Shown here piece by piece: positions 24,426-28,284 of a stretch of DNA of 64,000 bases. Source of the stretch: Tannerella sp. (lineage in GTDB: Bacteria > Bacteroidota > Bacteroidia > Bacteroidales > Tannerellaceae). Location: assembly GCA_031271805.1 (NCBI GenBank), contig JAISUX010000091.1, positions 29,753 through 93,752 on the forward strand, read 5' to 3'. The position numbers were made by a program, and so were the translations under genes. Position 1 is the first letter of the stretch; every line of letters starts with the position of its first letter. The notes under the pieces were generated by a model. It was not told the DNA's origin. It saw only the letters and a list, made by a program, of their open reading frames with translations, and ran no database searches.

Positions 24426-24662
24426 AATTATAAACAATTATGATTTAAGAAACAGAAATAAAAAGTGCGTAATGCACACAAAATAAGACATATAAAATAG
24501 CGTTTGCTATTGTTCGAGATGCTGTGAAATGTAGGAAGTTTCTGGATAGTATCTTTAGAATAAGTCAGCGAATGTCTATGCTTTAGCATGGGTATGACTT
24601 TTCCAAGATACAAGGTTATTCCTACAACCGCACAGCATGGAGAGAGTATCCATGCTTTTTTT
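24426..24662 (+). ncRNA. Candidate structured leader RNA / small RNA ending in an intrinsic terminator
   Basis: Nested helices 24521-24526/24631-24636, 24530-24537/24619-24626, 24549-24555/24605-24611, 24562-24567/24595-24600, apical 24576-24581/24586-24591; downstream terminator. Confidence 0.6.
24634..24662 (+). terminator. Intrinsic terminator
   Basis: AGCATGGA - gagagta - TCCATGCT followed by a T-run. Confidence 0.75.
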
Positions 24663-24729
24663 GTCTATATCAGATAATGGAGTAGCCGATAGCCAATTAA
24701 AGTGGAGGCGTAACTTTAATATTTTTTTT

Positions 24730-24894
24730 ATGTACACCCAATTATTAAATGACCTTATAACCAGGTCAGTAAGCGATCTTCAATTCTCGGGGCAATATCC
24801 CGAACGCGAAGAAACTCTTTTTAGCGGACGTTGCAGCGACGGAAGTTGCAGTGGCGATTGTACAGGTTCTTGCCATGGCGATGCTTCGCGTTAA
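24730..24894 (+). CDS. Putative RiPP precursor peptide with C-terminal Cys-rich (CXXX-like) core
   Basis: MYTQLLNDLITRSVSDLQFSGQYPEREETLFSGRCSDGSCSGDCTGSCHGDASR; short leader plus Gly/Ser/Asp/Cys core; upstream of a radical SAM gene. Confidence 0.65.
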   Translation: MYTQLLNDLITRSVSDLQFSGQYPEREETLFSGRCSDGSCSGDCTGSCHGDASR

Positions 24895-24901
24895 AAACTT
24901 C

Positions 24902-24931
24902 GGGGCTGTCCAAAAGCACAGCCCCTTTTTT
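24902..24931 (+). terminator. Intrinsic terminator/attenuator between precursor and maturase
   Basis: GGGGCTGT - ccaaaagc - ACAGCCCC - TTTTTT. Confidence 0.85.
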
Positions 24932-24966
24932 ACATCCAAATATACTAACAAACGAGCGTAAATTAA

Positions 24967-25632
24967 ATGAAAAAATTCAACTTATCAATAATAATGACTC
25001 ATCAGTGTAATCTTAAATGTCTTTATTGCTATGAGACAATAAGAAACAAAAAGGTTATCTGCAAAGATACTGCCGTGAATATTATCAGACACTATTTAAA
25101 TAGTAAAGAATATGATGAAATCGAAATAGACTTTTTCGGAGGTGAACCATTTTTAGAATTTCAAAAAATCAAAGAAATATGTGAATGGGTTTGGAGTCGG
25201 AAATGGCGAAATAATTTCCTCTTTTTTACTACAACGAATGGTACTTTGGTGAAGGGCGAAATTAAGGAATGGTTACGAAATAATAGAAAAAGATTTTGGG
25301 TAAGTGTTAGTTTAGATGGAGAAAGAACAAGCCATAATATGAACAGAAGTAATTCATTTGATTGTATAGACATTCCGTTTTTTTACGAATGTTGGCCATC
25401 TCAAACTTTGAAAATGACTATTTCAAAAGAAACAGTCAACAATTTATATAATAACATTACTTATTTGCACTCGATTGGATTTAAAATAACCGGAACTAAT
25501 TTCGCAGAAGGAATAGATTGGGAAGAAAGAAAATTCACAAAAGTTGTCTGCGAACAATTAGATAAATTATGTCGCTATTATATTGATCATCCTGAAATAG
25601 AGCCTGTTCCATATAAATATGCCAATTTATAA
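24967..25632 (+). CDS. Radical SAM peptide maturase, catalytic part
   Basis: MTHQCNLKCLYCYE (CxxxCxxC), FFGGEPFLEF, FFTTTNGTL, WVSVSLDGER. Confidence 0.9.
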   Translation: MKKFNLSIIMTHQCNLKCLYCYETIRNKKVICKDTAVNIIRHYLNSKEYDEIEIDFFGGEPFLEFQKIKEICEWVWSRKWRNNFLFFTTTNGTLVKGEIKEWLRNNRKRFWVSVSLDGERTSHNMNRSNSFDCIDIPFFYECWPSQTLKMTISKETVNNLYNNITYLHSIGFKITGTNFAEGIDWEERKFTKVVCEQLDKLCRYYIDHPEIEPVPYKYANL

Positions 25633-26050
25633 ATGCGAAGAAAAAAAACGAATGACGAAACGATGTGGATGTGGCGAATTGATGGCCGCGTATGAAGCAG
25701 ATGGGAAAAAATATCCGTGTACTTTTTTTACGCCAATGACTTTTAGTGTAGAACAATTGGCAATTATTGACACTATTGATTGGTCAAATGCTGAATACTT
25801 TATTGATGTAGAATGCTTTAACAACTGCTATATAGAGCCAGTATGTAATAGTTGTTACGGTGCAAATTTATTACAAAACGGTAAATTAAATATTAGAGAC
25901 AAAAGTAGATGTGAACTGATGAAAATCCGCGCCGTCTTTTCTGCGGCTCTTGCTGCGAACAGATTTGTGAAAAAACCAACTGATAATTACGAGAACGCAT
26001 TAACAGCAAAAGCGATTCAAAACATCAACAATTTATTCAATAGGATATGA
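25619..26050 (+). CDS. SPASM-like Cys-rich C-terminal part of the radical SAM maturase (apparent frameshift from the upstream ORF)
   Basis: RCGCGELMAAYEADGKKYPCTFF...VECFNNCYIEPVCNSCYGANLL; 14-nt overlap with upstream ORF in another frame, no independent start context. Confidence 0.8.
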   Translation: MPIYKCEEKKRMTKRCGCGELMAAYEADGKKYPCTFFTPMTFSVEQLAIIDTIDWSNAEYFIDVECFNNCYIEPVCNSCYGANLLQNGKLNIRDKSRCELMKIRAVFSAALAANRFVKKPTDNYENALTAKAIQNINNLFNRI

Positions 26051-26564
26051 AATTTCAAATACGCAAGACTGTAGAACATGACATTGGACTATATAAAAAA
26101 TGCCTTGAGAACGATGAATTCAGATGGTTTCTTTATGGAAATAATAAGTTAAATATAGAAGAAAGTACTTTTTATAGAGGAAAACGACACCAAAAGTTCA
26201 TTGTTTCAAGAATTAACGATGATGATATTGAAGATATGGGGTTTTGTGACTTCTACTATAATCAAGATATTGAAGAATACATATATTCGGTGGAGTACTA
26301 CCAAAGTATTTCAATAGTGGAATTGGATTATTCGCGAATGTCATCGCATTATCATATATGTTCATCATTGATCCTATGAGTATTATTAAGGTGTACATAT
26401 ATAAATATAACCAACGCTCAAAGAGAATGGCGGTCGCATTGGGTTTTCAACCATACGAAGAAACCAACGATGAATACATTTTAAAATTAACTAATAATCA
26501 GTTTAATAATCCATTTGTCGGAAAAATACTAAACAGGTTGGATATTTTGGTTAAGGAAGAATAA
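26047..26564 (+). pseudogene. GNAT-family acetyltransferase, apparently frameshifted at ~26274-26310
   Basis: N-term MKFQIRKTVEHDIGLYKKCLENDEFRWFLYG in one frame; C-term HIFGGVLPKYFNSGIGLFANVIALSYMF...YKYNQRSKRMAVALGFQPYEE in another; ATGA overlap with the preceding ORF. Confidence 0.7.
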
Positions 26565-26598: not shown

Positions 26599-26640
26599 TC
26601 AGAAATCCACGCTTAGACGCAGGTTTAGTTGGCGTCCGGT
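26599..26640. repeat. 42-bp perfect direct repeat, left copy
   Basis: TCAGAAATCCACGCTTAGACGCAGGTTTAGTTGGCGTCCGGT; identical to 28243-28284. Confidence 0.97.
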
Positions 26641-28242: not shown

Positions 28243-28284
28243 TCAGAAATCCACGCTTAGACGCAGGTTTAGTTGGCGTCCGGT
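28243..28284. repeat. 42-bp perfect direct repeat, right copy (3' end and stop codon of the TonB receptor gene)
   Basis: Identical to 26599-26640; minus strand encodes TGRQLNLRLSVDF*. Confidence 0.97.

Follow-up and report, generated by a model that had tools for sequence, protein, structure and literature searches.

Does a 54-residue cysteine-rich peptide, encoded ahead of a radical-SAM enzyme and a GNAT, belong to one of the named peptide-maturation systems, or to a group of its own? The genes in question lie in the window, by which we mean the whole 64,000-nucleotide stretch of DNA analysed here. A preliminary description had placed a radical-SAM RiPP locus at 24730-26050, likened its small peptide to the CXXX-repeat target peptides and suggested that the GNAT might mark a new subtype. 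We consider it probable that a RiPP operon was acquired horizontally here, and that it belongs to an unnamed radical-SAM/SPASM subfamily intermediate between the CXXX-repeat and PapB families, with the mechanism proposed below.

Organization of the Locus

The genes are all on the forward strand, in the order 54-aa peptide, terminator, radical-SAM/SPASM maturase and GNAT (Table 1). Much of what had been described before is borne out. The 54-aa ORF, with cysteine gaps of 4, 3 and 3, is exactly as claimed; the terminator reported behind it has a perfect 8-bp stem (stem-loop at 24902-24925) followed by a T tract; and the two maturase motifs, CNLKCLYC and the SPASM-like VECFNNCYIEPVCNSCYG, are both present, in two reading frames. 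The break in the maturase was implied by the earlier wording "frame-corrected maturase", but the break in the GNAT went unmentioned. The extent first given also needs widening at both ends, as the GNAT continues beyond it and a conserved leader element lies upstream. Neither an exporter nor a leader protease is evident beside the window's genes, and no second maturase-like gene was seen in the ORF list.

Table 1. Features of the locus in window coordinates.
Feature	Position	Strand	Sequence or character	Basis or remark
Leader element	24675..24709	+	ATAATGGAGTAGCCGATAGCC-AATTAA-AGTGGAGGC	Stops 20 nt short of precursor ATG
Precursor, 54 aa	24730..24894	+	Leader MYTQLLNDLITRSVSDLQFSG, core RCSDGSCSGDCTGSCHGD	ORF, leader/core comparison
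Intrinsic terminator	24902..24931	+	Separates precursor from maturase	8-bp stem, T tract
Maturase, N-terminal part	24967..25632	+	CX3CX2C; stops at frameshift	Homology to L125
Maturase, C-terminal SPASM part, other frame	25619..26050	+	7/7 SPASM Cys retained	Homology to L125
GNAT-like gene, frame 1	26047..26379	+	Homology up to ~26270	ATGA overlap with maturase stop
GNAT-like gene, frame 2	26277..26564 (start approximate)	+	Motif GGVLPKYFNSGIG	Alignment to L127 GNAT

A Clade of Compact Radical-SAM/SPASM Maturases

The nearest intact maturase, that of locus L125 (genome G328, another family of the same order), is 65% identical over 220 aa; taken part by part, 135/211 residues of the N-terminal and 85/143 of the C-terminal portion are identical to it. 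The second nearest, that of L022 (G086), is about 55% identical, and among matches within the window's own genus the best is G031. In the phylogeny, the 23 maturases group together with strong support (ultrafast bootstrap 99, SH-aLRT 99), apart from five canonical CXXX maturases from the same bacterial family as the window (L004, L027, L028, L030, L033), and within this clade the enzymes of the window, L125 and L022 make up a subclade (100/98). The features expected of a radical-SAM/SPASM peptide maturase were found: a CX3CX2C motif, seven SPASM cysteines (7-8 being typical) and an adjacent precursor gene. The 19 aligned intact maturases have ten invariant cysteines, three in the radical-SAM motif and seven in the SPASM domain, and none of the ten is missing from the two parts of the window's enzyme.

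An AlphaFold model of the L125 maturase (pLDDT 94) has the SCIFF maturase CteB as its top PDB match (5WHY/5WGG, E 4e-18), and the top structure match by hmmsearch is likewise 5WGG. Because the CteB profile match starts at CteB residue 96, the N-terminal recognition domain (RRE) is missing; CX3CX2C begins as early as maturase residue 14. The top-scoring family models are for maturases of Cys-rich peptides. For most members the top NCBIfam model is NF047865 (PapB), which intact members match at 102-136 bits, well under its cutoff of 340, while TIGR04119 is matched by the maturase's own SPASM part alone (19.4 bits vs 150). A paper naming this maturase family was not found in the open-licence literature. 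Judged by these scores and by the tree, the family is an unnamed variant among radical-SAM RiPP systems, lying between the PapB and CXXX maturases.

The surroundings of the maturase genes differ among loci. In L034, L128, L024 and L025, a small membrane-segment protein with a zinc-ribbon-like tail (GHRCAHCGSYDT..CNKC) is encoded just upstream. At L127 (G488:C8) and L131 (G414:C30), the maturase gene is surrounded by genes for a Ser/Thr kinase, for PP2C-like phosphatases, for M50 or M48 peptidases and for GTPase-like proteins; together these may form a conflict or signalling cluster. Two further ideas were considered and rejected. As to carriage of the window type by phages or plasmids, the system was not found on viral contigs; one 45% relative lies on a Phocaeicola massiliensis plasmid. 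For membership in a defence system, the viperin-like matches are weak and confined to the shared radical-SAM domain.

Precursor Peptides

The precursor, MYTQLLNDLITRSVSDLQFSGQYPEREETLFSGRCSDGSCSGDCTGSCHGDASR, has cysteines at positions 35, 40, 44 and 48, four within 14 residues. It is the sole carrier of C-X3-4-C-X3-C-X3-C among the 514 window ORFs of 30-120 aa; at least four cysteines within 18 aa occur, however, in 12 of these 514, so that cysteine richness alone is not decisive. A search for homologous precursors found the core motif CxDGSCSGxCxGxCxG again, in two copies, directly upstream of the nearest related maturase, in the L125 peptide MLTELLNELILKRLNLLSFTA...RCYDGSCSGNCVGGCDGD...PCYDGSCSGDCVGGCSGT, whose leader is as in the window. 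The L022 precursor, MTDLLNNSILELVKSLQFNGELEKPLLVPYVCPTGGTE, is also directly upstream of its maturase. None of 2000 shuffles matched the window leader as well as the leaders of these two peptides do. Since the L022 precursor, that of the second-nearest relative, has a single cysteine, a core with four cysteines is not common to the whole subclade.

An adjacent small ORF on the same strand was judged precursor-like for 22 of the 23 related maturases. Under a strict rule (at least three Cys in the last 30 residues, and Cys plus Gly at least six), 22/23 maturase loci pass, against 1/89 control genes of the same loci; the two counts cover slightly different sets, as L022 fails the strict rule with its one Cys and the pass of L042 looks like chance. 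This association upholds the original assignment to radical-SAM RiPP loci; the refuting condition named with that assignment, homologous maturases lacking a conserved precursor alongside, was put to the test here and turned out in favour of the assignment. The precursor is upstream of the maturase in the window, L125, L022, L127, L043, L128, L036, L129 and others, and downstream in L024-L026, L034, L035, L041, L003, L130, L131, L144 and L145. Precursor cores vary by maturase subclade. That of the window has one C-x-D, two C-x-x-D and zero CX3D, and some precursors of other subclades (CGCFGCGMGCSGTVGM) are devoid of acidic acceptors.

Could the small ORF be a chance Cys-rich frame, and the maturase an orphan? 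The dozen window ORFs that are as Cys-dense would allow it, as would the scores against TIGR04114, the CXXX-repeat target model (11.7 bits for the window and 16.4 for L125, under the cutoff of 20). Against this stand the leader and core conserved in L125, the leader conserved in L022, and a conserved small-ORF position that a single control gene imitates; comparison across relatives largely refutes a chance ORF, which we regard as extremely improbable. The same weak TIGR04114 match can be turned the other way, into an argument that the locus represents a degenerate or short form of the CXXX-repeat system (TIGR04114/04115/04119), and TIGR04115 is indeed the second-best model for the maturase, while the family member L036 has a long CXXX array. 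Yet the family scores 92-134 bits with TIGR04115, whose cutoff is 350, whereas, within the same bacterial family, genuine CXXX maturases reach 619-639; the two groups are separate clades; and neither a second maturase gene alongside nor an SRREFFK-type leader is present. With both the TIGR04115 and TIGR04114 cutoffs missed and the TIGR04119 partner gene absent, the suggested CXXX-repeat affinity does not stand. We reject membership on profile scores and phylogeny, and give it very little probability. An unnamed maturase subfamily with a precursor of its own is the reading that we prefer.

The GNAT Partner

Frame 2 of the window's GNAT-like gene is 34% identical, over 97 columns, to the GNAT encoded right behind the L127 maturase, which aligns in turn to the GNAT of L043, again positioned behind the maturase. 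The motif GG[VLI]xPxxFNxGIG is common to them. The L127 protein has a weak match to PF13302 (E 1.8e-4, just below cutoff), and the pieces of the window's GNAT-like gene have zero Pfam matches but can be aligned to the L127 protein. Going by these alignments and positions, the GNAT is a real partner of the maturase in three loci, as had been suspected, but with an occurrence in 3/23 loci it does not define the maturase group and is not a mark of the family.

A Probable RNA Leader Ahead of Several Precursors

In the window, L125, L127, L043 and L003, a near-invariant element, GGAGnnGCCGATAGCC-N(3-9)-AGTGGAGGC, is found some 17-21 nt ahead of the precursor's ATG; in L022 it precedes an extra Cys-containing ORF. 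Its blocks are GCCGATAGCC and AGTGGAGGC. Detection was by blastn between loci, an approximate scan, pattern searches of the order and the family, a 13-sequence alignment and a sequence model (R2), and reversed-pattern controls gave 0 matches. We rejected the possibility that the element is a peptide (GVADS/KWRR reads), as stops intervene and spacers of 3, 4, 6, 7 and 9 nt are incompatible with one continuous frame; since no reading frame survives these spacers, the element acts at the nucleic-acid level. When the pattern was relaxed, 7/393 sampled Bacteroidales genomes matched it, the reversed control giving 0. In four of the seven it is at radical-SAM RiPP loci (the window, G328, G488 and G306, the last with a different radical-SAM enzyme). 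In the remainder, and in two genomes added by the family search, it precedes a 45-aa ORF, an ADP-ribosylglycohydrolase-like gene or genes for Yip1-like or DUF805-like membrane proteins (labels given by sequence inspection, not profile search), or is near lipoprotein-like genes. The notion of a RiPP-specific element was rejected, as other genes are preceded by it too.

The element is similar to the DUF805b RNA (RF02914) in being a short leader just before a start codon, and the letters CGGA..GCCGAwAGCC..AAAGwG..GG are in both. Unlike that RNA, the window element has no outer AGGC/GCCU hairpin, and RF02914 (gathering cutoff 35.6 bits) does not call it even at E 10. A true DUF805b RNA, at 42.3 bits, is found just before the L128 precursor (L128 8499-8535). 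It is probable, from these shared letters and positions, that the leader element is a variant of the DUF805b RNA class. A broader proposal, which we offer tentatively and hold at somewhat less than even, is that the maturase clade is a distinct RiPP class under a DUF805b-type RNA leader, and that the same leader, placed before precursors of at least two radical-SAM families (also in G306) and before unrelated accessory genes, would define a shared RNA-level regulon of Bacteroidales peptide and accessory genes.

The locus with the different radical-SAM enzyme, L173 (G306:C23), encodes two proteins resembling radical-SAM peptide maturases, together with several tiny peptides, rich in Cys and Asp, whose common start is YVSEL (MQNEYVSELILMNQMYCMDC..., METGYVSELVFLAN...); there the leader element is also found before a CTYWCE peptide.

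Another structured RNA, of about 180 nt and with a terminator at its end, is at 24486-24662 (+) of the window. It folds 5 sd better than shuffles and has no Rfam match. It was found in 13/125 genomes of the bacterial family, one per genome in the search, with varying neighbour genes. In 15 sequences, double changes are seen in 24/32 pairs, and 91.6% of cells are paired vs 38-43% when slid. A role as the operon's attenuator is not supported, as elsewhere this RNA is upstream of unrelated genes and the sampled RiPP loci lack it. At L200 1501-1827 (G013:C331), it is 94 nt upstream of a DUF805 RNA (RF03081, 71.6 bits); thus, the two RNAs can be neighbours.

Broken Genes in a Low-GC Island

The host assembly is a Bacteroidales MAG (G000:C56) of 3.07 Mb. 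Between 24.15 and 28.24 kb, the window has an island whose GC content is mostly 30-39% except near its ends, most of the backbone being at 45-53%. All three of the window's visibly broken genes are inside it: the maturase, frameshifted near 25600-25632; the GNAT, frameshifted near 26270; and an ORF of Schlafen/AlbA type, interrupted by an in-frame TGA where Trp is expected. In relatives, the island was not found at either junction, neither flanking gene leading into it. A perfect 42-bp direct repeat (26599-26640 and 28243-28284) duplicates the 3' terminus of a gene for a TonB-dependent receptor-like protein. The two copies bracket 1.6 kb that contains the Schlafen/AlbA-type ORF, which the TGA cuts in its upstream part; the segment looks like an insertion at the gene end. 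The simplest reading is an acquired island that is now decaying, although faulty assembly of a low-GC region in a MAG may be the cause. Since both enzyme genes are frameshifted, the system was probably inactivated recently, and the window copy is probably inactive.

Proposed Mechanism

We propose that the maturase recognises the 54-aa precursor, presumably via its N-terminal leader (MYTQLLNDLI..VSDLQFSG), and that, using SAM and two auxiliary Fe-S clusters, it would join the four core cysteines to nearby residues. The links would most likely be non-alpha thioethers (ranthipeptide type), with Asp, Asn or Thr in the motifs CxG[DNT] and CxD as acceptors. In the window and L125, the repeated module is C-x-D-G-S-C-S-G-[DN]-C-x-G-[SG]-C-x-G-[DT]; therefore, by spacing, the candidate acceptors are Asp at Cys1+2 and D/N/T at Cys2+3 and Cys4+3. 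By analogy with the closest enzymes, ranthipeptide-type thioethers are likely, given the seven invariant SPASM cysteines and a fold like that of CteB; attachment at beta or gamma carbons is our best guess. The GNAT would serve to acetylate the product or to give the producer protection, the DUF805b-like RNA leader probably tunes precursor translation, and the terminator would keep the precursor in excess over the enzyme.

It may be asked whether the frameshifts are assembly or base-calling errors in an active locus. The genome is a MAG in 138 contigs, 86% complete, coverage can drop at low GC, and the two maturase halves are about equally conserved, with every key cysteine kept. On the other hand, the three lesions crowd into 3.3 kb while the remaining gene-sized ORFs of the 64 kb look intact, and the maturase break is not at the nearby A8 run. 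We find such errors doubtful, though far from negligible, and prefer an island in decay. As for the product, SPASM folds serve many chemistries and several precursors of other subclades are without acidic acceptors, which would leave room for sactipeptide links (S to C-alpha) or another change, such as epimerisation or C-C or C-O links. However, the four cysteines are the most regular feature of the core, and the best-scoring neighbours, PapB, SCIFF/CteB and QhpD, are known or named thioether formers (PMC9413430, PMC10352776). A product other than a ranthipeptide therefore seems to us unlikely, and ranthipeptide-type thioethers are the chemistry that we favour.

The maturase-precursor family is widespread and unnamed, and its enzyme gene is broken in the window genome. 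Intact, compact enzyme-precursor pairs for study are those of G328/L125, G086/L022 and the Muribaculaceae MAG locus L043, and they suit the question of how a SPASM enzyme chooses acceptor residues without an RRE domain. The leader element ties RiPP precursors to an orphan cis-regulatory RNA class, the function of which is open to a simple reporter test.

Comparison with Known Systems

The CXXX-repeat system (TIGR04114/TIGR04115/TIGR04119/TIGR04117) occurs in the same bacterial family and shares with the window locus a regular C-X3 spacing, with Gly and Ser, and a maturase without an N-terminal extension. It differs in that the window's enzyme is in a separate clade and scores low, the precursor is short, with a single module and a different leader, and there is no TIGR04119 partner gene. 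The PapB/PapA system (NF047865) likewise pairs a single radical-SAM/SPASM enzyme with a Cys-rich peptide that has acidic residues near its cysteines. PapA, however, has six CX3D/E motifs, whereas the window core has four cysteines with C-x-D and C-x-G-D/N/T spacing, and, unlike PapB, the window family is without an N-terminal recognition domain. The links made by PapB run from Cys to Asp or Glu, and the enzyme takes Cys-Xn-Asp substrates for n = 0-6 (PMC9413430). The SCIFF maturase CteB (5WGG/5WHY) differs in its other precursor, in its first ~95 residues (the recognition domain), which are absent from the window family, and in an identity of about 22%. It is nevertheless the closest solved structure by sequence and fold, and the window family matches it in having seven SPASM cysteines, the number reported for CteB, Tte1186 and QhpD (PMC10352776).
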